From the NCBI GenBank assembly GCA_021806645.1, contig JAJZQX010000003.1:1-64000 (forward strand): a stretch of DNA of 64,000 nt. Reading direction: 5' to 3'. Shown here piece after piece: positions 38,317 to 50,247 of the stretch. Within the stretch, counting starts at the first letter, position 1. Every line of letters begins with the position of its first letter. The notes under the pieces were generated by a model that worked only from the letters and a program-made list of their open reading frames with translations, was not told the origin of the DNA and did no database searches. Made by a program: the position numbers and the translations under genes. Source of the DNA: Myxococcales bacterium. GTDB lineage: Bacteria; Myxococcota; Myxococcia; Myxococcales; Anaeromyxobacteraceae.

Positions 38317-40065
38317 ATGCTCGCCCTCCTCGCCACGCTCTTCCTCTTCCAGGGTCAGGAAGCCGCCCCGCCGCCGCCGCCGGCACCGCCCGCGCCCGTG
38401 GCGCGACCGGTGGCGCCCGCCCCGCCCATCCCGCCCGTGCCTCCGCGGCCGCCGCGCTCGGCCACCCCCCGCGCCGACCCCGACGCCGACCTGCTTCGCG
38501 GCGAATGGCCGGCCCATCCATCGGGCAAGCGGATCACGCTGGACGGCAAGGAGACCATCGACGACGCCGTGGCCGAGATCGGCAAGGCGGCCGGCTGGAG
38601 CGTCGCCACCAACACCGGCCGGCTGGGCGACCGGATGCTGCTGCTACGGCTCCAGGACGTGCCGGTCGAGGAGGCGCTCCGCGCGGTCCTCTCCGGCTCG
38701 GGGCTGGTGGCCACGCGGCGCGGCACCATCGTGGCCGTCGCCCCTGGCTTCGGGCCCACCACGCCGCCCAGGCCGGTGCTGGTCGGCTTCGACAAGCCGA
38801 GCGGCAAGACCTTCACCGGCGACTTCGAGGACGAGGACGGCCGCGACGCGCTGCTGCAGATCGGCCGCGCCACCGGCCTCTCCATCACGCTGCCGCCCGG
38901 CAGGCACGGCAAGGTGACGGCCCACTTCAAGGACGCGCCGGTCGAGGAGGTGCTGCGCGCGGTCCTCTCGCAGTCCGGCCTCTCCGCCGAGCGCCACGGC
39001 ACCCTGGTGACGGTGAGCGGGCGAGGCGGCCGGTCGGGCCGGTTCGACTCCTTCGGCGACATCGCCGAGGAGATCGGCCGGATGACCGAGGAGGCGACCC
39101 GCACGGCCGAACGGGAGGCCCGGAGGGCGGAGCGCGAGGCGCGCCGGGCCGCGGGCGGCTCGCGCCACGACCGCGAGAGCGTCGGCGGCGACGTGGTGAT
39201 CGAGCCGGGCCAGACGGCGCGCGACGTCACCGCGGTGCGGGGCAGCGTGACCCTGCGTCCGGGCGCCGAGGGGCGCGAGGTGGTGGCTGTGCTGGGCGAC
39301 GTCAACCTCGAGGCCGGCTCGTCGGCGCGCCAGGTGGTGGCCATCGCCGGCGACGTCCACGTCGGACCAGGCGCGTGGGTGGAGCGCGACGCCGTCGCCA
39401 TCGGCGGGCGCGTGCTGATCGACCCGGCCGGTGACGTGGGCGGCCAGAAGGTGACCATCGGCGTCGGGGCCATCGGCGACGCCATCAGATCCATGAGCCT
39501 GCGCGGCCACGGCGCGACCCCGGGCGGCGGCTTCTGGGCGGTGGCCAGGTTCGTGGCCAGGTTCGGGGTCCTGCTGCTGCTCGGCTTCCTGCTCATGACC
39601 CTCTTCCCGCGCCGGATCGACGCCGTGGCTGCCTCGCTGACGGCCAACCCCGGCAAGTCGGTGCTGGCCGGCCTGCTCGGCCTGCTGGCCCAGCCGCTGC
39701 TGTCGCTCCTGCTGGTGGTGACCGTGGTCGGGATCCCGCTGCTGCTGGTGCAGGCGCTCGGGCTGGGCGTCGCCTACCTGATGGGCGTCACCGCGGTGGC
39801 GGTGCTGGTCGGGCGGGCGCTTCCGGAGGCGCTGCACCGCCAGACCGGGATCCTCCAGCTGGCCATCGGCCTCGGGCTGGTGCTGCTCGCCCTGGCGGTC
39901 CCCTTCGTCGGCTGGCTGCTCTGGGCCGCCCTGGTGATGGCCACCTTCGGCGCCGTGCTCCGCACCCGCTTCGGCCAGACGCCGGTGCTGGAGACGGTCG
40001 CGGCCTCCGTGCCGCCGATGCCGCCGCCGGTCCAGCCGCCGGTCCAGCCGCCATCGGCCGGATAG
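38317..40065 (+). CDS. STN-domain and polymer-forming/bactofilin-like membrane protein
   Basis: This 582-residue protein begins with a short hydrophobic stretch and a long Pro/Ala linker (residues about 15-55). Two tandem repeats resembling secretin/TonB N-terminal (STN) domains follow: VPVEEALRAVLSGSGLVATR near 112 and APVEEVLRAVLSQSGLSAER near 207. A charged helix (EEATRTAEREARRAEREARR) leads to a right-handed beta-repeat of the polymer-forming type (GSVTLRPGAEGREVVAVLGD, ARQVVAIAGDVHVGPGAWV). The C-terminus has four or five membrane spans and a Pro-rich tail. The combination is unusual and its role is unknown; linkage to an ECF sigma/anti-sigma pair suggests envelope homeostasis. Confidence 0.8.
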   Translation: MLALLATLFLFQGQEAAPPPPPAPPAPVARPVAPAPPIPPVPPRPPRSATPRADPDADLLRGEWPAHPSGKRITLDGKETIDDAVAEIGKAAGWSVATNTGRLGDRMLLLRLQDVPVEEALRAVLSGSGLVATRRGTIVAVAPGFGPTTPPRPVLVGFDKPSGKTFTGDFEDEDGRDALLQIGRATGLSITLPPGRHGKVTAHFKDAPVEEVLRAVLSQSGLSAERHGTLVTVSGRGGRSGRFDSFGDIAEEIGRMTEEATRTAEREARRAEREARRAAGGSRHDRESVGGDVVIEPGQTARDVTAVRGSVTLRPGAEGREVVAVLGDVNLEAGSSARQVVAIAGDVHVGPGAWVERDAVAIGGRVLIDPAGDVGGQKVTIGVGAIGDAIRSMSLRGHGATPGGGFWAVARFVARFGVLLLLGFLLMTLFPRRIDAVAASLTANPGKSVLAGLLGLLAQPLLSLLLVVTVVGIPLLLVQALGLGVAYLMGVTAVAVLVGRALPEALHRQTGILQLAIGLGLVLLALAVPFVGWLLWAALVMATFGAVLRTRFGQTPVLETVAASVPPMPPPVQPPVQPPSAG

Positions 40066-40093
40066 CCGAAGCGCCCCTGTCGCCGCAGCCGGA

Positions 40094-40136
40094 CCGCGCG
40101 TCGCTCACCTCCAAGTGGGCGACGCGCGGTACGTTT
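40094..40136 (+). terminator. Strong intrinsic-type terminator
   Basis: CCGCGCGTCGC (40094-40104) pairs perfectly with GCGACGCGCGG (40119-40129). The stem extends inward by a G-T pair and CAC/GTG, giving about 15 bp with the 6-nt loop CTCCAA. TACGTTTTC follows, supplying a short T-run. It closes the sigma-factor operon and separates it from the RHS island. Confidence 0.7.
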
Positions 40137-40172
40137 TCACCGACAGCGCATTTCGCGCTTGACTCTCCGGAC

Positions 40173-40182
40173 GGGGGGGGGG
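40173..40182 (+). repeat. Homopolymeric G10 tract upstream of the RHS locus
   Basis: Ten consecutive G residues lie between a TTGACT (40159-40164) and the Cys-rich gene. Such tracts can slip during replication. The tract falls in what would be the spacer of a promoter with TTGACT as -35 box, but the putative -10 (TACGCC) is poor. Confidence 0.6.
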
Positions 40183-40206
40183 TACGCCCATGCCCTCTCA
40201 CGCTCC

Positions 40207-40788
40207 GTGGAGTGCCACTTGCGCCATTCGACCCCGACGTCCCGGAAGCAGTTGCCCGTGTTGATTGCCGTTGCCGTAGCGGTCGCCGCGCTGCCGGGAG
40301 CGGTGAGGCCGATGCTCTCCTGCCCGCTGGAGGAGAAGCCGGTCGGCGACTGCTACAACTACACGTGCGACACCGCCTCCGGCATGTGGCTGGAGGTCGG
40401 AGTGAAGGCGAACGGGAGTTCGTGCAACGACGACCGGGCGTGCACGACCGGGGACAAGTGCACGGGTGGTGTCTGCGCTGGAGCACCGACCACCACCATC
40501 TGCTGTTCCAATGGCACCCCGATTACGACCAACGTCTGCTGCTCCGCCGGGAGCCCCTTGACGGACACCCCGTGCAACGACGGGAACGCCTGCACGCAGG
40601 CCGACGCCTGCCAGGGCGGAGCCTGCGTCGGCAGCAGCCCCATCGACGCGGCCAACTGCGCAAGCTCCGCGGGCGCCTGTCGGTTCACGACCGACCGGAC
40701 GACCTACTGCTACGACAAGGCGGGGAACGTGACGGCGACACTAGTGCGCGTCCTTGGCAATGCTTGCGTGCAGTTCACTTGTCCTTGA
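40207..40788 (+). CDS. Secreted Cys-rich protein preceding the RHS gene
   Basis: This approximately 193-residue protein has a hydrophobic signal-like segment (QLPVLIAVAVAVAALPGAV) and then a Cys-rich exported domain. Two repeats of the form CNDDRACTTGDKCTGGVCAG and CNDGNACTQADACQGGACVG resemble Cys-rich repeats common in myxobacterial surface proteins. Near the end is CYDKAGNVTATLV, reminiscent of an RHS YD repeat. The start is uncertain: GTG 40207 keeps a basic n-region; GTG 40258 and TTG 40261 are alternatives. An ATG at 40190 is in another frame and soon stops. It is 13 nt before the RHS start and may be a separated N-terminal part of the same system. Confidence 0.55.
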   Translation: MECHLRHSTPTSRKQLPVLIAVAVAVAALPGAVRPMLSCPLEEKPVGDCYNYTCDTASGMWLEVGVKANGSSCNDDRACTTGDKCTGGVCAGAPTTTICCSNGTPITTNVCCSAGSPLTDTPCNDGNACTQADACQGGACVGSSPIDAANCASSAGACRFTTDRTTYCYDKAGNVTATLVRVLGNACVQFTCP

Positions 40789-40801
40789 GTTTGGAACCCA
40801 C

Positions 40802-43800
40802 ATGCTCGAGTCCCATCGCTCATACTCAGGACAGCGGACCTTCCTGCGCCTAGCAGTGCGCTCGGTGCTTCTCCTAGCCATGAGCGCTTGGCTCAATCGT
40901 GGAAGCGCGATGGCACAGTACTGTCAGCTCCAGTACGTCGATTTCGGAGAAATCTGTTGCAGTGGCGGTTCCTGCGCATGCAAGGAGGATGTCGTCTACT
41001 GCAGCGGAGAAGTGGCGCAGGCGGCGGGTACGTGCCCGACCGGATGGAAGGCGGACGGGGACTGTCCCAAGCGCGTCGTTGGCTCCTGTGATTGGCCTTA
41101 CAACTCGAGCAATGACGCCGGGGATGGCTGCCTTGGAAACGGGGAAACCATAGCACCAGACTCCAGCCAGCCCCAGTGCACTTGCGTCGCACAGTGTGAC
41201 CATCCGTCATGCACGACGACGCCAATGCCTCGGGCACAATGTGAGCCGCTTCCCAGGCCGGAGCCGGGAATGTGCGGCACGGGGATCAACGATCAGTGCG
41301 GTGGCGATGCAGGTCAACGCTGTGCTCCGCCAACCCAAACACCCCATCAGGAGGCAACGAGCCCAGTCGACGAGATGAACCGCGGCTGCTCCGTCGGCGA
41401 CTCCGGCGGCAGCGATCCCCTCATGCTCGCCAACCGAAGCGCCGCCACCGAGCCGTTCACGGACATCTCCTTCGAGGGACTGAGGCGGTTGTCCGTCTCG
41501 CGGACCTACTCCAGCGCTGACTTCAGCGTGCGTGGAACTGGCACCCCGGGCGTCTTCGGACGCGGTTGGCACCACGACTGGGAGGGGCACGTGCGCTGTG
41601 TCAACAACGGCATCGCCTGCCAGATCGGGATGGGGCTCGGCATCTGGCTGGACTTCAAGCGGCAACAGATCTGGTCCGCCAACTCGTTCACCTATGCCAC
41701 CGTGACCGGCATCGGCGCTTACGCAGGCGAGACGCTGGACGTCTTCACCCGGGCCGAGGTGGAGGCCTTGGGTGCCGGCGGCCAGGACCTCATGCTCCGG
41801 CGAACCAACGGCGAGTTCATCCTCTACCTGGCGGACGGCCGCGAACTCCATTTCGTCCCCACCGCCAACGGCGCTGGCTGCACCAGCCCCGATAGCAACT
41901 TCTGCTTCGACGCGAACAAGAACGGCCGCGCCCGCCTGACCACGGAACTGGACCAGACCGGCCGCGCCGTCCACCTGGCGTACAACGCGCCCGGCGCGCT
42001 CCTGACCCTGACCGACGATCTCGGCAACACCCTCGCGCTCAAGAACAGCGCGACCTGCCCGGCTCGCGTCACCTCGGCGGCCGTCAACGGCGTTGACTAC
42101 CTGTCCTACGAATACCACCCCGGCTGCGACACGCTGAAGCGCGTCTTCTCGGCCGTCACGCCCGACCTCGATCTGCGATCGTACGAATACCAGTCCATGC
42201 CGGGCCCCGGGTACCTCACCAAGGTCAGGAACTCCAGGGTCAAGACGCCCCTCGGCACCTACGTCGGCGGAGACGCCATCGCCGAGTTCGGGTACGCGGC
42301 CAATGGCGACGCCACCTCGCTTATCGACCGCGAGTCGAACATCACGGTGACCTATCCCGACGCGACGCATGACCTCGCGTCCCATCTCTTTGCCGGGAGT
42401 TCCAGTTCAGTCGGCCACACTCGTGGTGGCGGCGGCAAGGCCGGCATCGTGATGAACGATGCCGCCTTCCGGTACATGAGCTGGCTGGGCCGGTTCCTCC
42501 GCTGCCATGAGGACGCCCAGCACCACGTGCGGTACTTCGAGCGCGACACCCATCACCGCGTCACCCGGGTCGCCGAGTACTCACCGGGGGCCTACAGCTG
42601 CCAGAGCACGACACCACCGGCTGCCTCCCTCGTTCCCCTCCGCGAGGAGTGGTTCGAGTACGGCGTCCAGAAGACGGTGGCCGCAGGGACCCAGTTCAAC
42701 CCCAGCACGCCGACCAGGATCACCCGGCGGTCGATTCACGCAGCGAACGCAGGCGCCGCCGCTGACCCCTTCACCTCCGAGACCTCCGACTTCGATCGGA
42801 GCTGGAAGAGCAGCGATCCAGTGGGGTATTCCTGCGGCGGCGTCGGGCTCCCCGATGGCGCCGTGGTCTGCCGGAAGCGCGTCCGGGGCTATTCGCTCGA
42901 CGGCTATGGCAACGCGGTCGCGGAGGAACACACCACCTACAACAGCTACGATTCCCGCGGCCGGCTGGTGAAGTCGCTTGGGCCGATCTACACCGCGGGC
43001 AGCGCCCCGCTCATCAACGTCGATCCCGCCGAAGAGCGCACCTACTACGCCGACACCGACGCCGACGCCAACAAGCGGGGCCGGCTCAAGACCGTCACGC
43101 GAACGGTCAACTCCAGCCTGTCACTCACGGTCACGTACGACACCTGGGGAGCGTTCGGCCCCCAGACCATCAAGGACTACAACGGCAGCGTCCCAGGTGC
43201 GGCTGGCGGCACCACCACGCTGGCATGGGACGGCCAGGGGCGCGTGGAGGGCGTACTCACGCCCGATGGCCGCCAGGTCTCGGTCCGTTACTACGACGGC
43301 CAGTGGCCGCGCCTCATCCTGCTTGGAAGCGGTGCCGTTCGGCGCTTCAGCTACGACGACAAGGGGCGCGTGATGACCATCGAGGCGCTCTCGGGTGACC
43401 CCGATGTCCCGGGCTCCACGCCAGTGGTTGGCTGGACCGAGACCCGCACCTATGATCCGGCCGGCAACGCCACCCTCATCACGCGCAAGGACGCCAACGG
43501 CGCGGTGGTCTGGAAGCGGGAGCGGACGCACGACGCCGAGCACCGCCCGGCGACGGAGGTCCACCCGGTGCTGGCGGGCGTCAGCGCCTCGTGGGCCTTC
43601 GACCCGAGCGGCTTCCTGACCTCCTTCACCGACGAGGAGGGGCGCGTCACCGGCTTCACGCCGGACGACCTCAACAGGCCCTTCGTGGTGAAGAGGTCGG
43701 GGATGAAGCCTGACGGCGTCACGCCGGTCAGCCTCGACGTCGCCACCTACGCCTACGAGCCGGCGTCGTCCTCGATCCAGTCGGTCACCGATGGTGCTGG

Positions 43801-45688
43801 CCGCAAGACCACTTACACGCACGACGACTTCGGCAACGTCCTCACCGTCACGCCCGACGCTACGACCACTCCAGGTGGCTTCACCTACGGTTACGACGCG
43901 CGCGGGAATGTGGTCTCGCGCAGCGGCGGCGACTCGCTCATCACCTACACCTATGACGGGCTCGATCGGCTCACCTCGCTGAAGGCGAAGCAGCTGACCG
44001 CCGGGACGACCACCACGTATACCTACAGCTACGACCAGCCGAATCAGTTCGGCCGGCTCTCCAGCATCACCGAGCCTGACCGGACCACCACCTTCGGCTA
44101 TGATCCCGCCGGCAGGCTCACCTCCGAGGTGGTGCAGGAGAACGGCGTGGCCAGCATGTTGACCACCAGCTACGTCTACGACGCCGACGGGGCTCTGCAG
44201 GAGGTCCACTCGCCGGCGGGGCTCAACGTCAGGTACGAGCGCGATCCGGTCACCAGGGCGATCACCGAGGTGCGGAACGTGTCGGTCAACCCGACCACGG
44301 GGACCAGGTACGCGACCGCGATCAAGCACCTGCCATCGGGGCCGCTCACCAACCTCACCTTCCCCAGCGGGGCGACCCTGGCGCACGGCTACAACGCCCG
44401 CTATGAACCGCTCGCCGTCGTCAGTGGCCCGTTCAGCGCCAGCTACACCATGAGCCCGGCCGGTGACGTCAACGCCATCGGCCCGACCACCTTCACCTAC
44501 GACTTCCTCGACCGGCTCACGGAGATGAGCCCCGGCCACGGCCCTGGCGTCACCAGCTACAGCTACCGGTACGCTGGCGACAAGGTGACCGAGGCCTGGA
44601 CCATCGAGGCGACGCCGAAGAAGGCCTTCACCTTCGCCTACGACCTCAACTCCAACCTCTCGGCGGTGACCACCTGGTCGCCGGCCACTGGCCTGGCGAC
44701 CGGCACCACCTGCCTCGTCCACGACGCCCTCAACCGGCTCACCGCGGTGGGCCCGGCGCTGGCGACCCCCGCAGCTGGGGCCGTGGCCTGCAAGACAGAG
44801 GCGGACCTCGCCAGCGTGACGGTCCGCTTCAAGTACGACGCCCGCAACCGCCGCGTGGCCCGGCAGGACGGCGCCGGGGCCTGGAAGCAGTGGGCGCTGA
44901 TGCCGGACGGGAGCCCGCTCACCGAGTTCTGGAGGCCGACCACCAGCACCGACCCCTGGTCGAAGATTCGCGAGTACGTCTGGCTGGAGGGGAAGCCGCT
45001 GGCGCAGGTGGAGTACCCCGGCCCGACGGCCAACGAGGGGTACGTCTACTCGGTGCACACCGATCACATCGGCCTGCCGCGGGCGCTGACCAGTTCGACC
45101 GGCGCGGTGGTCTGGACGGCGGCGCCGACGCGCCCCTATGGCGACGTGGCTGAGGCGACCGCCACCGACCCGGCCAACGGCCGGACCGTGGTGACCAACC
45201 TGCGGCTGCCCGGGCAGTATGACGAGCGGCTGCTCGGCAGCGTGGGGCTCCAGGGGCCGTACTACAACTGGAACCGGTGGTACCTGCCGACCATGGGCAG
45301 GTACATGGAGTTGGACCCGATCGCCTTGGGTGGGGGGTTCAACGGGCGGTATGGGCCGAACTGGTACGGGTATGCGGAGGGGAATCCGCTCCGATACGTT
45401 GATCCCTTTGGGCTGGACCGGTACGAGGCCTGCAGGAACAAGGACCTGGGCTGGCTCATGGAGAAGATTTGTCGAAAGAGCGTCGACTGGCGGTGCGGGT
45501 CTACGCCCGGTGAAGCGTACATGTGTTGTGAAGCCGATGCCTCCGATTGTCGAACGGGTGCAAGCGGGGATACTGACGCTCTTACGAAGTGCGAACTCGA
45601 GAAGGCCAAGTGCGAGTTGAGAATCAAAGGTTCCAAGCCGAACCAACCACCGAAGCCTGCCCAGCCGCTGTGCCCCGGGAGTCGATGA
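40802..45688 (+). CDS. Exported RHS/YD-repeat polymorphic toxin
   Basis: This 1628-residue protein has an N-terminal signal sequence (FLRLAVRSVLLLAMSAWLN near 13-31) and a Cys-rich region to about residue 190. A DUF6531-like entry domain (FTDISFEGLRRLSVSRTYSS near 220-239) follows, then many YD repeats such as YTYDGLDRLTSL and FGYDPAGRLTSE, building the RHS shell. The RHS-associated core (YVYSVHTDHIGLPRALTSS, YDERLL, GRYMELDPIALGG) is near 1412-1515 and ends at YVDPFGLDR. The last 90 or so residues are a variable Cys/Lys-rich tip of no recognised family. Such proteins deliver the tip as a toxin. The tip and the N-terminal part are visibly lower in GC than the core. Confidence 0.92.
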   Translation: MLESHRSYSGQRTFLRLAVRSVLLLAMSAWLNRGSAMAQYCQLQYVDFGEICCSGGSCACKEDVVYCSGEVAQAAGTCPTGWKADGDCPKRVVGSCDWPYNSSNDAGDGCLGNGETIAPDSSQPQCTCVAQCDHPSCTTTPMPRAQCEPLPRPEPGMCGTGINDQCGGDAGQRCAPPTQTPHQEATSPVDEMNRGCSVGDSGGSDPLMLANRSAATEPFTDISFEGLRRLSVSRTYSSADFSVRGTGTPGVFGRGWHHDWEGHVRCVNNGIACQIGMGLGIWLDFKRQQIWSANSFTYATVTGIGAYAGETLDVFTRAEVEALGAGGQDLMLRRTNGEFILYLADGRELHFVPTANGAGCTSPDSNFCFDANKNGRARLTTELDQTGRAVHLAYNAPGALLTLTDDLGNTLALKNSATCPARVTSAAVNGVDYLSYEYHPGCDTLKRVFSAVTPDLDLRSYEYQSMPGPGYLTKVRNSRVKTPLGTYVGGDAIAEFGYAANGDATSLIDRESNITVTYPDATHDLASHLFAGSSSSVGHTRGGGGKAGIVMNDAAFRYMSWLGRFLRCHEDAQHHVRYFERDTHHRVTRVAEYSPGAYSCQSTTPPAASLVPLREEWFEYGVQKTVAAGTQFNPSTPTRITRRSIHAANAGAAADPFTSETSDFDRSWKSSDPVGYSCGGVGLPDGAVVCRKRVRGYSLDGYGNAVAEEHTTYNSYDSRGRLVKSLGPIYTAGSAPLINVDPAEERTYYADTDADANKRGRLKTVTRTVNSSLSLTVTYDTWGAFGPQTIKDYNGSVPGAAGGTTTLAWDGQGRVEGVLTPDGRQVSVRYYDGQWPRLILLGSGAVRRFSYDDKGRVMTIEALSGDPDVPGSTPVVGWTETRTYDPAGNATLITRKDANGAVVWKRERTHDAEHRPATEVHPVLAGVSASWAFDPSGFLTSFTDEEGRVTGFTPDDLNRPFVVKRSGMKPDGVTPVSLDVATYAYEPASSSIQSVTDGAGRKTTYTHDDFGNVLTVTPDATTTPGGFTYGYDARGNVVSRSGGDSLITYTYDGLDRLTSLKAKQLTAGTTTTYTYSYDQPNQFGRLSSITEPDRTTTFGYDPAGRLTSEVVQENGVASMLTTSYVYDADGALQEVHSPAGLNVRYERDPVTRAITEVRNVSVNPTTGTRYATAIKHLPSGPLTNLTFPSGATLAHGYNARYEPLAVVSGPFSASYTMSPAGDVNAIGPTTFTYDFLDRLTEMSPGHGPGVTSYSYRYAGDKVTEAWTIEATPKKAFTFAYDLNSNLSAVTTWSPATGLATGTTCLVHDALNRLTAVGPALATPAAGAVACKTEADLASVTVRFKYDARNRRVARQDGAGAWKQWALMPDGSPLTEFWRPTTSTDPWSKIREYVWLEGKPLAQVEYPGPTANEGYVYSVHTDHIGLPRALTSSTGAVVWTAAPTRPYGDVAEATATDPANGRTVVTNLRLPGQYDERLLGSVGLQGPYYNWNRWYLPTMGRYMELDPIALGGGFNGRYGPNWYGYAEGNPLRYVDPFGLDRYEACRNKDLGWLMEKICRKSVDWRCGSTPGEAYMCCEADASDCRTGASGDTDALTKCELEKAKCELRIKGSKPNQPPKPAQPLCPGSR
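44585..45320 (+). repeat. RHS core direct repeat, copy 1 (parent gene)
   Basis: About 736 bp of the parent RHS core recur almost unchanged at 46626-47358. The repeat runs from the codons for VTEAWTIEATPKKAF to MELDPI and ends where the two tips diverge. One 3-nt gap near 44684 distinguishes the copies. Confidence 0.9.
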
Positions 45689-45690
45689 CG

Positions 45691-46182
45691 ATGTCGGCAA
45701 AGAACATATGGGTCGTGCTAGGAGCCCTGGTGGTCGGGCTGCTTGCCGGAGCCGGATCGATGGCTGCGTTGTCGGCTCGAGCGAGCAGCCTATTCCTTCA
45801 GGAGGCACGGTTTAGGTTCGCTACCGAGAGTGCCGATTCAACCAAGTTAGCATACGGATTGGGCAACTGGGCGCAGGCCGACATTCACGCTGCGTGTCTG
45901 GTTGCGCTTGAGGCAGAGACCAGGACCTTCGATGCCGAAGCAACTTGGTGGACACCGGGTTACTCGTTGTCCGGACTATGGGTAACGAAGGCAACCCGCT
46001 ACCCGGTCCCAGATCGGAAGCAGCTTCTGGCGCTCTCCCACGCGCGGCGCGGCGCGGTGATGGAAGCGGCGGGACGTCGGGACGACGCGGGGCGTGAATA
46101 CGCCCTCTCAGTGAAGTTGACTGGGAATGGGAGTGTCGCATCTTGGCGAGAGGCCGGGAAGCTAGCCTTGGGCGGGAAGTAG
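45691..46182 (+). CDS. Small membrane-anchored protein, candidate immunity 1
   Basis: This 163-residue protein starts with one membrane span (AKNIWVVLGALVVGLLAGAG near 3-22) and has a helical, probably periplasmic domain (LGNWAQADIHAACLVALEAE, LALSHARRGAVMEAAGRRDD). It follows the RHS tip with almost no gap: an ATG at 45685 overlaps the RHS stop as ATGA, and ATG 45691 has GGGAG at good spacing. Position directly after a variable tip and low similarity to anything recognised fit an immunity protein. That role is inference from location. Base composition is less GC-rich than flanking genes. Confidence 0.65.
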   Translation: MSAKNIWVVLGALVVGLLAGAGSMAALSARASSLFLQEARFRFATESADSTKLAYGLGNWAQADIHAACLVALEAETRTFDAEATWWTPGYSLSGLWVTKATRYPVPDRKQLLALSHARRGAVMEAAGRRDDAGREYALSVKLTGNGSVASWREAGKLALGGK

Positions 46183-46194
46183 ACCGAGGTCACC

Positions 46195-46533
46195 ATGGCG
46201 CGCCATCAACGCCGCTTCGCAGCTGTCCTTGTCCTGGCTGCCTTGTCCGCTTGCTCGAAGCCAGAGACCGGAGGAATCCGGGAGTCAGGTGGTGCCACCC
46301 TCCTCACCGGCCCCGTCCTCGAACAGCTCGACGCGCCGCCGTACACGTATCTCCGCTTGAAGACCACCACCGGCGAGGTCTGGGCCGCCGTCCCCACCAC
46401 CGGCGCCGTGAACCGCGAGAAGCCGGTCACCATCCGCAGCTCCGGGGCGTTCAAGAACTTCTACGCCAGCCCGGCGGCACGGCGGTTCGAGGTGCTGCAC
46501 GTGGGGACGCTGGAGCCGGCGGGGAAGCCGTGA
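46195..46533 (+). CDS. Small OB-fold-like lipoprotein, copy 1
   Basis: This 112-residue protein has a signal peptide with lipobox LSAC near residue 20. The mature part (TGPVLEQLDAPPYTYLRLKT, GEVWAAVP, NREKPVTIRSSGAFKNFYAS) resembles the small NrfJ-like/OB-fold exported proteins, based on the recurrent YTYLxLxT...E-W-A-A-V-P pattern. The same mature sequence recurs in the gene at 48130-48474, while the signal peptides differ. Its stop overlaps a GTG that opens the RHS orphan. It may belong to the toxin cassette, for example as a periplasmic accessory or immunity factor; this is speculative. Confidence 0.75.
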   Translation: MARHQRRFAAVLVLAALSACSKPETGGIRESGGATLLTGPVLEQLDAPPYTYLRLKTTTGEVWAAVPTTGAVNREKPVTIRSSGAFKNFYASPAARRFEVLHVGTLEPAGKP

Positions 46534-46597
46534 CGGCAGCTCTCCCCCGAAATCCACTTTGGGCGCCCAAAGTTGCGAAGGAGGGGCTCCGGTCGGG
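46299..46597 (+). repeat. Lipoprotein-stub direct repeat, copy 1
   Basis: This 299-bp segment recurs at 48240-48538 with only about three base differences. It covers the mature lipoprotein and the first 22 or so codons of the RHS orphan frame (VTAALPRNPLWAPKVAKEG). The copies diverge sharply at both ends, which marks recombination boundaries. Confidence 0.92.
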
Positions 46598-47861
46598 ACT
46601 TGAGGCGAAGTACGAGCGCGACCCAGTGACCGAGGCCTGGACCATCGAGGCGACGCCGAAGAAGGCCTTCACCTTCGCCTACGACCTCAACTCCAACCTC
46701 TCGGCGGTGACCACCTGGTCGGCCACCGGCCTGGCCACCGGCACCACCTGCCTCGTCCACGACGCCCTCGATCGGCTCACGACGGTCGGCCCGGCGCTGG
46801 CGACCCCCGCAGCTGGGGCCGTGGCCTGCAAGACAGAGGCGGACCTCGCCAGCGTGACGGTCCGCTTCAAGTACGACGCCCGCAACCGCCGCGTGGCCCG
46901 GCAGGACGGCGCCGGGGCCTGGAAGCAGTGGGCGCTGATGCCGGACGGGAGCCCGCTCACCGAGTTCTGGAGGCCGACCACCAGCACCGACCCCTGGTCG
47001 AAGATTCGCGAGTACGTCTGGTTGGAGGGGCGTCCGCTGGCGCAGGTGGAGTACCCCGGCCCGACGGCCAACGAGGGGTACGTCTACTCGGTGCACACCG
47101 ATCACATCGGCCTGCCGCGGGCGCTGACCAACTCGACCGGCGCGGTGGTCTGGACGGCGGCGCCGACGCGCCCCTATGGCGACGTGGCTGAGGCGACCGC
47201 CACCGACCCGGCCAACGGCCGGACCGTGGTGACCAACCTGCGGCTGCCGGGCCAGTACGACGAGCGGCTGCTGGCCAGCGTCGGCATCCAGGGGCCCTAC
47301 TACAACTGGAACCGGTGGTACCTGCCGACCATGGGCAGGTACATGGAGTTGGATCCGATTGCGCTCTGGGGGAGCTTCAACACGCCCTTCGGTGTCGCTT
47401 GGTACGGCTACGCTCGCCAAAGGCCGCTGGTCCTGATCGACAGGGCTGGCCTTGATGAAACGGACTGGTCCAACTGGGGCGGCGGAGCGCGAATCCCGCC
47501 CATCTTCTTCGGCCCGACCAACGGCAACTGGGGCGGCATGTGCTGGGGTGGCGGCCGAGCATCCTGTGACGGGAAGGGCAATGGTCCCGGGCTGCCAATG
47601 GACAGCGGAGACGACGCCTACATGGGCCATGACCTCTGCTACGGAGAGTGTTCCGGAATCGCCAACCCGAAGCTCAGGAACTCCTGCGTCTCCATGTGCG
47701 ATCGAAGCCTGATCGACGACCTCAACAAGCTCAACGAAGATCCTCGGACGTGGCCGAGGCCCCCGAGGCCAGGCACTGAAGCGGATAGCCGAAACTACTG
47801 CGACCTGGCGAAGCAGAACTTCCTCTGCTCGGGATACCCCGAGAAGTGCAAGAGGAAGTAG
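46530..47861 (+). CDS. Orphan RHS core with phospholipase A2-like toxin tip
   Basis: This 443-residue frame starts at GTG 46530 overlapping the lipoprotein stop and lacks a signal peptide and the N-terminal RHS shell. After a 22-residue stub come YERDPVT and then RHS core nearly identical to the parent protein, up to MELDPIALWG. The tip (from about residue 305) contains GNWGGMCWGGG, GPGLPMDSGDDAYMGHDLCYGEC with His367-Asp368, and CDRSLIDDLNKL. This matches the Gly-rich loop, Pro-x-Asp and His-Asp-x-C-Y motif of secreted phospholipase A2. It may be a silent cassette, an expressed fragment or the product of rearrangement. Confidence 0.8.
   Translation: MTAALPRNPLWAPKVAKEGLRSGLEAKYERDPVTEAWTIEATPKKAFTFAYDLNSNLSAVTTWSATGLATGTTCLVHDALDRLTTVGPALATPAAGAVACKTEADLASVTVRFKYDARNRRVARQDGAGAWKQWALMPDGSPLTEFWRPTTSTDPWSKIREYVWLEGRPLAQVEYPGPTANEGYVYSVHTDHIGLPRALTNSTGAVVWTAAPTRPYGDVAEATATDPANGRTVVTNLRLPGQYDERLLASVGIQGPYYNWNRWYLPTMGRYMELDPIALWGSFNTPFGVAWYGYARQRPLVLIDRAGLDETDWSNWGGGARIPPIFFGPTNGNWGGMCWGGGRASCDGKGNGPGLPMDSGDDAYMGHDLCYGECSGIANPKLRNSCVSMCDRSLIDDLNKLNEDPRTWPRPPRPGTEADSRNYCDLAKQNFLCSGYPEKCKRK
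46626..47358 (+). repeat. RHS core direct repeat, copy 2 (orphan)
   Basis: About 733 bp match parent positions 44585-45320 with few changes. Just upstream, 46609-46629 aligns with parent 44231-44254 (codons YERDPVT) instead of the sequence adjacent to the repeat, so about 340 bp of core are missing in the orphan. Confidence 0.9.
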
Positions 47862-47863
47862 CG

Positions 47864-48133
47864 ATGAATCGAATCCTCTGGCTGCTGTTCCTGACGCTCA
47901 ACGTGGCTACGTGGTTGGTCTACCGCCTCGCTTGGATGACGGACTGGTACTTCGTGGGCCAGGGCTGGCTGGCGGCAGTCAGCGTCGCTGTGGCCCTCGC
48001 ACTGGTTGCTCGCGGGCATCGAGCCAAGAGAGACGTGTTGCTCTTGGTGGTCGGCCTCGTGGTGGGCCAATGGCCCGTCTGGTCGCGGTACCTGGCGCTT
48101 GCGGTCTGGCGCTACAGGGGCTTTGCCCCATGA
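47864..48133 (+). CDS. Small integral membrane protein, candidate immunity 2
   Basis: This 89-residue protein has two to three membrane spans (ILWLLFLTLNVATWLVYRLA near 3-22, WLAAVSVAVALALVA near 35-49, VLLLVVGLVVGQW near 57-69). It starts 2 nt after the stop of the phospholipase-like tip with AGAGGAAG at good spacing and ends in an ATGA overlap with the second lipoprotein. A membrane-embedded protein next to a membrane-lipid-attacking tip is a natural candidate immunity protein. No family was recognised, so the role is inferred from position. Confidence 0.65.
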   Translation: MNRILWLLFLTLNVATWLVYRLAWMTDWYFVGQGWLAAVSVAVALALVARGHRAKRDVLLLVVGLVVGQWPVWSRYLALAVWRYRGFAP

Positions 48134-48474
48134 GTCGGCAACTCAAGGCTACTGTTTGCGCCGCAGTCCTGATTGCAATGCTGCCGGCATGCTCGAAGGG
48201 CCCGGCCCAGTCCGCCCCACTCTCCTCCCCCGGCCAGATCCTCCTCACCGGCCCCGTCCTCGAACAGCTCGACGCGCCGCCGTACACGTATCTCCGCTTG
48301 AAGACCACCACCGGCGAGGTCTGGGCCGCCGTCCCCACCACCGGCGCCGTGAACCGCGAGAAGCCGGTCACCATCCGCAGCTCCGGGGCGTTCAAGAACT
48401 TCTACGCCAGCCCGGCGGCGCGGCGGTTCGAGGTGCTGCACGTCGGCACGCTGGAGCCGGCGGGGAAGCCGTGA
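48130..48474 (+). CDS. Small OB-fold-like lipoprotein, copy 2
   Basis: This 114-residue lipoprotein has a signal peptide with lipobox LPAC near residue 21. From TGPVLEQLDAPPYTYLRLKT onward its mature region is identical to that of the gene at 46195-46533, except for silent changes. The first 37 residues are unrelated to copy 1, so the common part was copied or exchanged by recombination while the signal peptides remained distinct. ATG 48130 overlaps the previous stop. Confidence 0.75.
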   Translation: MSRQLKATVCAAVLIAMLPACSKGPAQSAPLSSPGQILLTGPVLEQLDAPPYTYLRLKTTTGEVWAAVPTTGAVNREKPVTIRSSGAFKNFYASPAARRFEVLHVGTLEPAGKP

Positions 48475-48538
48475 CGGCAGCTCTCCCCCGAAATCCACTT
48501 TGGGCGCCCAAAGTTGCGAAGGAGGGGCTCCGGTCGGG
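48240..48538 (+). repeat. Lipoprotein-stub direct repeat, copy 2
   Basis: This is the second copy of the 299-bp segment at 46299-46597, offset by 1941 nt. It ends within the RHS stub; beyond 48538 the sequence is unrelated. Confidence 0.92.
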
Positions 48539-48591
48539 GCACGACGTGGACCGCCAGCGGGACGCTGCTGCCAGGGCGACCCGCCGCGAAA
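48471..48591 (+). pseudogene. Truncated RHS stub, cassette remnant
   Basis: A GTG at 48471 overlaps the lipoprotein stop exactly as in the first cassette and opens the same 22-codon start (VTAALPRNPLWAPKVAKEG). Instead of RHS core, unrelated sequence follows and the frame ends at 48620, inside the oppositely oriented neighbour. It appears to be a remnant of a third cassette whose core and tip were lost, and it marks the right end of the island. Confidence 0.6.
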
Positions 48592-50199
48592 CTAGATCAA
48601 CACCAGCCCATCCTCGGTGAAGACCGCCGACCCGGAGAGGATGGCGTCGAGGTTCTGGGCCCGCTCCTCCGAGAGCTCCGACACCAGCTCCAGCACGGTC
48701 GGGAAGGTCATCACCAGCGCGTCGAAGTCGGCGCGCTGCAGGCGGAGCAGGGAGCCGGGGCGGCGCACCGTCACGGTGGCGGTGGCGCCGCTCTTGCGCA
48801 GGCAGCTCATCTCGCCGAACAGGTCCCCCTCGCGCAGCTGGCCCACCAGCACCTCGGTCGTCTGGGTGCGGCGGGTGACGTCCACCGCCCCCTCCAGCAC
48901 CACGTAGAGCCCGTCGGCCGGCGTCCCCTCGCGGATGATCACCTCGCCGGCGCGCACCGCCCGCTCGCGGAACTTCTCCATCACCGCCTTGCGGTCGTCG
49001 CGGCCGAAGGGGCGGAAGAGCGGGCTCACCGCCAGCGCGTTGGCCAGCAGCCGCTGCCGGTAGAAGTGGCGCAGCGAGCCGGCCAGGTGCGGGAAGCGGC
49101 CGGCCAGCGTGCGGAGCACCTCGGCCTCGATCACCAGCACCTCGGACGGCTCCTCGGCCACCACCGTGGCGTTGCGGGGCGCGCCGGAGAGGAGCGCCAT
49201 CTCGCCGAAGAACTCCCCCTCGCCGAGGTGGGCCAGCACCACCTGCTCCCCCTTCTCGTCTCGCCTCTTCACCAGGAGGCGGCCGGTGGAGACCACGTAG
49301 AAGGCGGTCCCCTCCTCCCCCTCGGTGATCACCGTCTGGCCGGCGGCCAGCCGCGCCACCGACAGCCCCCCGGTGAGGGCCACGAAGGCCTCCGGGCTCA
49401 GATCGGAGAAGATCGGCACTCGCGGCAGCCGGGCGTCGGGGCGTGGCGCGGCGGCCTGGACAACCGGAGCCCCCGGTGCCGGCTCGAACTCGGGCTCGAC
49501 CTCCAGCAGCTCCACCGCCTCGTCGTCCACCACGTCCACGTCCACCGAGAACTCCTCTTCCACGCCGGCCAGCACCGCCTCGTCGGCGGCGGCCACGATC
49601 AGGTCGAGGGCGGTCGGATGGCGCGCCGGCTCGGCGACCGGCTCCTGCAACTCGGCCGGCAGCTCGGACTGGTCGAACGGGTCCCTGGTCCGCTCCAACT
49701 CGGACGGCTCCGGTGGGACCGGCGGCGTCAGTGGCAGCGACACCCCACGCTCCACCTCCATCTCCTCGTCGCCCACCGGCTCGAGCTCGATGACCCGGTC
49801 CCGCGGGGGCGGCGGCTCGGCCAGCTTCACCGCCGCGAGGCCCATCATGGTCCGCATCGGCGGCCGCCCCGCCTCGGCGATGGAGCGCCTGGCGTAGAGG
49901 TCGGCCAGCAGCCGCTGCGTCTCGCCGTGCTCCGGATCGAGCTCGAGGATGGTCTTGCTGATGGCGATGGCCTTGATGAGCAGGCCGTCGCGCGCGAACC
50001 GCTCCGCCACGTCGGCGTAGCGCTCCACGGCCTCGGCGATCTCGCCGCCGCGCCGCAGCACGTCGGCCAGCTTCTGGCACGAGGCGACGTCGCGCGGGTC
50101 GGCGCGCACTATCTCTCGGAAGACCTCGGCCGCCTTCTCGACCTTCCCCTTCGAAGCCAGCTCGGCGGCCTTGTCCTTGAGCTTTCGGAGGTCGGCCAT
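48592..50199 (-). CDS. TPR protein with two cyclic nucleotide-binding domains
   Basis: This 535-residue protein has an N-terminal TPR-like region (AAELASKGKVEKAAEVFREI, LADVLRRGGEIAEAVERYAD) to about residue 105, then a Pro/Glu-rich acidic linker of about 140 residues. Two tandem cNMP-binding domains follow, near 265-380 (FFGEMALLSGAPRNATVVA) and 390-505 (LFGEMSCLRKSGATATVTVR). Both have the phosphate-binding cassette but with Asn or Ala at the position usually occupied by the ligand-binding Arg followed by Ser/Thr, so ligand binding is uncertain. There is no DNA-binding or kinase domain. The second ATG (50199) has AGGA at better spacing than the ATG at 50205. Confidence 0.85.
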   Translation of the reverse strand: MADLRKLKDKAAELASKGKVEKAAEVFREIVRADPRDVASCQKLADVLRRGGEIAEAVERYADVAERFARDGLLIKAIAISKTILELDPEHGETQRLLADLYARRSIAEAGRPPMRTMMGLAAVKLAEPPPPRDRVIELEPVGDEEMEVERGVSLPLTPPVPPEPSELERTRDPFDQSELPAELQEPVAEPARHPTALDLIVAAADEAVLAGVEEEFSVDVDVVDDEAVELLEVEPEFEPAPGAPVVQAAAPRPDARLPRVPIFSDLSPEAFVALTGGLSVARLAAGQTVITEGEEGTAFYVVSTGRLLVKRRDEKGEQVVLAHLGEGEFFGEMALLSGAPRNATVVAEEPSEVLVIEAEVLRTLAGRFPHLAGSLRHFYRQRLLANALAVSPLFRPFGRDDRKAVMEKFRERAVRAGEVIIREGTPADGLYVVLEGAVDVTRRTQTTEVLVGQLREGDLFGEMSCLRKSGATATVTVRRPGSLLRLQRADFDALVMTFPTVLELVSELSEERAQNLDAILSGSAVFTEDGLVLI

Positions 50200-50247
50200 C
50201 GCCATGGTCCTAGCACAGGCCGGGCGGAGGGTCCTCTTTACGCCCGC

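Follow-up and report, generated by a model that had tools for sequence, protein, structure and literature searches.

The 64,000-nucleotide stretch analyzed here (the window) is part of contig C6 of a 4.14 Mb, 99% complete genome from the family that includes Anaeromyxobacter. Judged by its sequence, it carries a genuine island of the RHS polymorphic toxin type, in which one cassette is displaced; this is an already-known kind of arrangement; the new element is a lineage-specific lipoprotein companion of this otherwise known weapon type. We consider it likely that the whole is a Sec-exported RHS polymorphic toxin island, of probable horizontal origin, used against related bacteria. We infer that the full-length RHS1 would be exported and present tip 1 at its C-terminus, and that imm1, as a membrane-anchored envelope protein, would shield the producer. 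RHS2, tip 2 and imm2 form a displaced cassette, probably a silent reserve that might still give immunity, and recombination in the highly similar core could fuse tip 2 to the delivering part of RHS1. The lipoprotein would be a family-specific, tip-independent RHS companion, related to a chromosomal lipoprotein encoded next to recQ. The island offers two pairs of tip and candidate immunity gene, for each of which another genus has a related pair. It also offers a lipoprotein lineage whose recurrence is confined to RHS loci, which makes it a concrete candidate for the role of surface partner.

Layout, insertion site and repeats of the island

The order from 5' to 3' is Cys-rich ORF, RHS1, imm1, lipoprotein 1, orphan RHS2, imm2 and lipoprotein 2 (Table 1). 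ORFs and translations at 40219-48474 bear out the gene order given in the preliminary description. To the left lies a conserved gene for a membrane protein, which ends at 40065, and to the right a gene for a cNMP-binding-domain protein (48592-50205, minus strand). Both flanking genes adjoin in G023, a genome of the same genus, where their stop codons are ~14 bp apart, and they are also direct neighbors in G018, G019 and G020, which belong to another genus (the empty site was established via the downstream flank gene and local tblastn). The 8.5-kb block is missing between the same two neighbors in these four relatives, and is therefore an insertion in the host lineage or has been lost repeatedly. 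The island was probably acquired horizontally.

Table 1. Coordinates of the island and its features, given as positions in the window.
Feature	Coordinates	Strand	Basis and remarks
Whole island	40066..48591	.	8.5 kb, inserted between two convergent conserved genes
Cys-rich secreted protein	40219..40788	+	ORF/translation; uncertain start codon, at most 189 aa
RHS1, full length, 1628 aa	40802..45688	+	Pfam, NCBIfam, translation
Variable tip 1, 90 aa, 9 Cys	45416..45688	+	Begins directly after core end ...VDPFGL
Candidate immunity 1 (imm1), 165 aa	45685..46182	+	N-terminal membrane segment; ATGA overlap with RHS1 stop
Lipoprotein 1	46195..46533	+	Lipobox LSAC, single OB-like domain; translation, alignment, model of close copy
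Orphan RHS2 core end, 443 aa	46530..47861	+	Translation; GTG start
Palindromic element copy 1, ~56 bp	46542..46597	+	Genome-wide copies
Variable tip 2, 135 aa, 9 Cys	47454..47861	+	C-terminus of RHS2; PLA2-like motif
Candidate immunity 2 (imm2), 89 aa	47864..48133	+	Integral membrane protein
Lipoprotein 2	48130..48474	+	Signal peptide and linker differ from lipoprotein 1
Palindromic element copy 2	48483..48540	+	3' side without RHS sequence

RHS1 consists of a signal-peptide-like N-terminal segment, a Cys-rich N-terminal region, DUF6531, YD repeats and an RHS-associated core. Matches above cut-off were obtained in Pfam (PF05593, 1.4e-36; PF20148; PF03527) and NCBIfam (TIGR01643; TIGR03696, 1.1e-12), and both the YD repeats and the RHS-associated core that mark an RHS polymorphic toxin are present. 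The signal peptide is weak, as no segment exceeds the hydropathy threshold. In Anaeromyxobacter soli SG29 (G005), too, the RHS gene has a Cys-rich secreted ORF immediately 5' of it, with no detectable sequence similarity between its product and that of the Cys-rich ORF of the island. For the latter protein, as for the immunity candidates and the lipoproteins, no curated family was found above cut-off in Pfam, NCBIfam or PADLOC, and PADLOC returned nothing for the island.

RHS2 is 90% identical to RHS1 residues 1254-1541 and has no signal peptide. Its start codon overlaps the stop of lipoprotein 1 and its frame reads through a palindromic element, to the 3' end of which the core is joined exactly (46598). 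The core opens with a short stretch similar to the YERDPVT portion of RHS genes and from there jumps ~110 residues in frame to VTEAWTI. With a partial core homologous to RHS1, no export signal and imm2 behind it, RHS2 has the composition of an orphan rhs-CT/rhsI module. The duplication noted in the preliminary description is confirmed by two repeat blocks, both far beyond chance. One is the RHS core end (44583-45340 versus about 46622-47380, ~750 bp), with identity mostly 90-100% per 50-nt window; the other is the lipoprotein 3' half plus the element (46297-46597 versus 48238-48538, 300 bp, 99% identity). In the part between the blocks the two copies are unrelated, from the tip through the immunity gene to the signal peptide of the lipoprotein.

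An RHS stub had been placed after each lipoprotein, its start overlapping the lipoprotein stop in GTGA. The overlap is present at both lipoprotein stops, but the stub was rejected: the frame that follows GTGA is a dispersed palindromic repeat. This oriented element of ~56 bp includes a perfect 18-bp palindrome (ACTTTGGGCGCCCAAAGT) and occurs seven times in the host genome. Five copies lie outside the island in unrelated contexts, with 91-100% identity (loci L003, L004, L005, L006 and L007, near position 1501). By gene names assigned by eye from translations, elements lie behind lipoproteins 1 and 2, clpX and a WD40-like gene and near rpsO/pnp, and two further copies are in or next to DUF222/HNH-like genes. 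Within L003, an HNH endonuclease-like gene spans 886-2190, and the element there occupies an open frame, either inside the coding sequence or at a break of it. G023 holds one partial copy (L063, near 907), and none was found in the other 22 family genomes with up to 2 mismatches allowed. Past copy 2 there is non-RHS sequence and then the end of the next gene. An Rfam search returned nothing, and the predicted RNA fold of the element is no better than those of shuffled sequences (z -0.02).

Variable tips and candidate immunity genes

The comparison covered 24 genomes of the family, 8 of which have this RHS type, and a search of the phylum covered 193. At about ten core ends in the family the boundary is fixed and is followed by several unrelated tips, some of them common to differing cores. 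In G009 an orphan RHS core carries, from the same boundary onward, a 36% identical homologue of tip 1, and a 37% identical imm1 homologue lies directly behind it; all three imm1 homologues found in the 193 phylum genomes are inside RHS loci. A homologue of tip 2 (61% identical) is carried by a full-length RHS protein in G005, again with an imm2 homologue (39% identical, nearly equal in size) directly behind. Each pair is known from one other genome only, that of G009 for pair 1 and G005 for pair 2, in either case of another genus. For tip 2, the phylum search found only G005 and one weak, interrupted match, and a wider search of GTDB genomes found A. soli only.

A third tip is 100% identical over the 63 aa compared between G009 and G002, and this identity on differing cores indicates recent exchange. 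Its positions are 7245-7433 in L082 and, in reverse strand orientation, 4460-4648 in L086, both from Anaeromyxobacter-group genomes.

The recurrence of pairs and the exchange of tips form the pattern predicted for exchangeable tip/immunity modules. The original reading as a polymorphic RHS toxin with an orphan cassette is supported by the RHS families, the pair recurrence, the tip exchange and the empty site, and no fixed arrangement with tips under ordinary divergence was seen in the relatives compared. The mobile unit of tip, immunity gene and lipoprotein that it proposed has to be narrowed: tip and immunity gene travel together, but the lipoprotein was found with neither pair in G005 and G009.

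Tip 1 matched no known toxin. Together, the Cys-rich character of both tips (nine Cys each) and the membrane segments of both immunity candidates suggest that the tips have targets in the envelope. Tip 2 is probably a phospholipase-A2-type membrane toxin, based on the motif GxPxDxxDxxxxHDxCY (sequence GNGPGLPMDSGDDAYMGHDLCY), in which the calcium loop and the His-Asp motif of Tox-PLA2 are both found. Tip 2 has no match in Pfam or NCBIfam, and its poor model (pLDDT 47) gave no fold match. These profile and fold results, none of them significant for PLA2, lend some weight to a different Cys-rich envelope toxin, which we regard as the less probable reading, though a substantial one. Against it, the PxDxxDxxxxHDxCY residues occur in order, and the G005 homologue retains this core (the prolines, aspartates, His-Asp and Cys-Tyr), with less strict conservation of the glycine loop; also, every sequence match in the PDB is a PLA2, although weak (E 0.8-3.5).

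We consider it improbable that the island is no weapon but a YD-repeat gene, decayed or with a housekeeping role, that underwent an ordinary tandem duplication: RHS genes of this type are patchy in the family, and several family RHS loci have transposase-like insertions and truncated cores, but the long frames are intact, unrelated tips occur at a fixed boundary and the same tip/neighbor pairs recur.

Other RHS loci were observed in the family. The host genome has a second full-length RHS gene (within locus L054, contig C25, 57000-71693), 49% identical, with a different, glycine-rich tip; downstream come a 224-aa membrane protein, an RHS-linked lipoprotein and finally a Cys-rich repeat ORF. 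In the RHS arrays of L085 (G001) and L062 (G002), transposase-like ORFs separate the core fragments, and the same conserved gene of ~583 aa comes after both arrays.

The RHS-linked lipoprotein

A two-domain lipoprotein of this type is encoded once in nearly every family genome searched, and in the inspected loci with enough flanking sequence it sits between ABC-2 transporter genes and recQ. Every extra single-domain copy that was found lies behind an RHS core end and in the same orientation: two in the window, one on host contig C25 and others in G001, G002 and G004. In G002 the lipoprotein is directly before another RHS core fragment. Of the 8 genomes with RHS genes, 4 have RHS-linked copies, against none of the 16 others (Fisher p 0.007, with genome kinship ignored). 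RHS-linked copies share the first domain and the lipobox architecture with the recQ-linked protein, whereas they have the first domain only and their own clade (five copies, support 95/93, in a short alignment with some long branches), and the residue after the lipobox Cys is Ser or Thr rather than mostly Lys.

Lacking a lipoprotein are the RHS ends of G005, G009 and G004-C142 (the G005 contig ends ~2 kb past the RHS gene). A lipoprotein fixed in every cassette, as described at the outset, is thus correct for all three RHS ends of the host genome and fails at these RHS ends of relatives; the lipoprotein is a recurrent companion of RHS loci, not a fixed one.

The lipoprotein model is a confident OB-like barrel, and its best fold matches are generic tRNA-synthetase OB domains (E 0.007), which are uninformative on function. 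The mature domains of lipoproteins 1 and 2 are the same except for one residue at the first position. Because the same mature domain stands beside two unrelated tips, a role as tip-specific antidote appears unlikely. Help in RHS display or anchoring, or hitch-hiking as a 3' homology arm, is more likely.

The second of these would leave the lipoprotein with no role in the system, its 3' half and the element being merely the downstream homology arm of cassette exchange. We take this as a serious contender, if not the favored one. It fits the position of the variable stretch, which is bounded exactly by the RHS core on one side and by the lipoprotein 3' half with the element on the other. Weak constraint on the lipoprotein in G004, G001 and G002, which would also fit, is favored by the internal stop in the G004 copy and by the comparison of the G001 and G002 copies (dN 0.067 / dS 0.107, ratio about 0.6). 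It accords less well with a separate RHS-linked clade kept in two genera, and with the fact that all three host-genome copies retain an intact frame and a complete lipobox.

A role of its own for the lipoprotein could be that of a dedicated, tip-independent OB-domain partner that anchors Sec-type RHS toxins or exports them across the outer membrane in Myxococcota. This more specific proposal is a long shot; if true, the partner lipoprotein would fill a gap in the account of how RHS proteins with a signal peptide arrive at the surface of Gram-negative cells. Very improbable is a true or second immunity protein of each cassette, for which the gene is suitably placed directly behind each candidate immunity gene and a precedent exists in the lipoprotein immunity family Imm65 (PMC3482391): the mature domains differ beside unrelated tips only by the residue at the domain start, one clade extends across genera with still other tips, and the tip 2/imm2 homologues of G005 (whose contig ends ~2 kb on) and the tip 1/imm1 homologues of G009 have no lipoprotein.

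Delivery and comparison with known systems

We found no report of a lipoprotein linked to RHS modules, or of Anaeromyxobacter RHS toxins, in the portions of the open-access literature that were covered. In SitBAI the lipoprotein itself is the toxin. Unlike in SitBAI, the island lipoprotein is constant while the RHS tip varies. The two are alike as myxobacterial polymorphic toxins with lipoproteins (PMC5562445).

The T6SS sheath gene VipB was not found in the 99% complete host genome and no PAAR or VgrG domain was found in RHS1 with Pfam; neither the T6SS nor the PAAR/VgrG link of T6SS-delivered Rhs effectors was seen. In the accessible text of PMC10433427, Rhs4 and Rhs5 of Myxococcus xanthus, both large Rhs proteins with a signal peptide, act in kin discrimination independently of T6SS, and surface display and toxin delivery by such T6SS-independent proteins in myxobacteria are called an open question. 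RHS1 resembles Rhs4 and Rhs5 in being a large myxobacterial RHS protein with a signal sequence, a polymorphic C-terminus, no apparent need for T6SS and a mobile location; these differ in size (~4000 aa) and in their location on Mx-alpha prophages, and the same portion of that source makes no mention of a lipoprotein companion or a tandem orphan cassette (PMC10433427).

Tox-PLA2 is an established domain of polymorphic toxins (PMC3482391). Tip 2 resembles the toxins described there in that a filamentous secreted protein ends in a PLA2-type motif, whereas its similarity is at the level of the motif, without statistical support.

Orphan modules that are reactivated by recombination are known from enterobacteria (PMC3150448, PMC3967940), with orphan rhs-CT recombination reported in Salmonella (PMC3967940), both sources being cited here from their accessible parts. 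According to those parts, these systems and the island have in common a main full-length gene and its immunity gene, behind which stands a displaced core end with its own tip and immunity gene; also alike are the lack of export signals in the orphan modules and a core homology that permits fusion (PMC3150448, PMC3967940). A lipoprotein is not described in the same parts of these sources, and the island RHS1 adds a Sec-type signal and a Cys-rich N-terminus.
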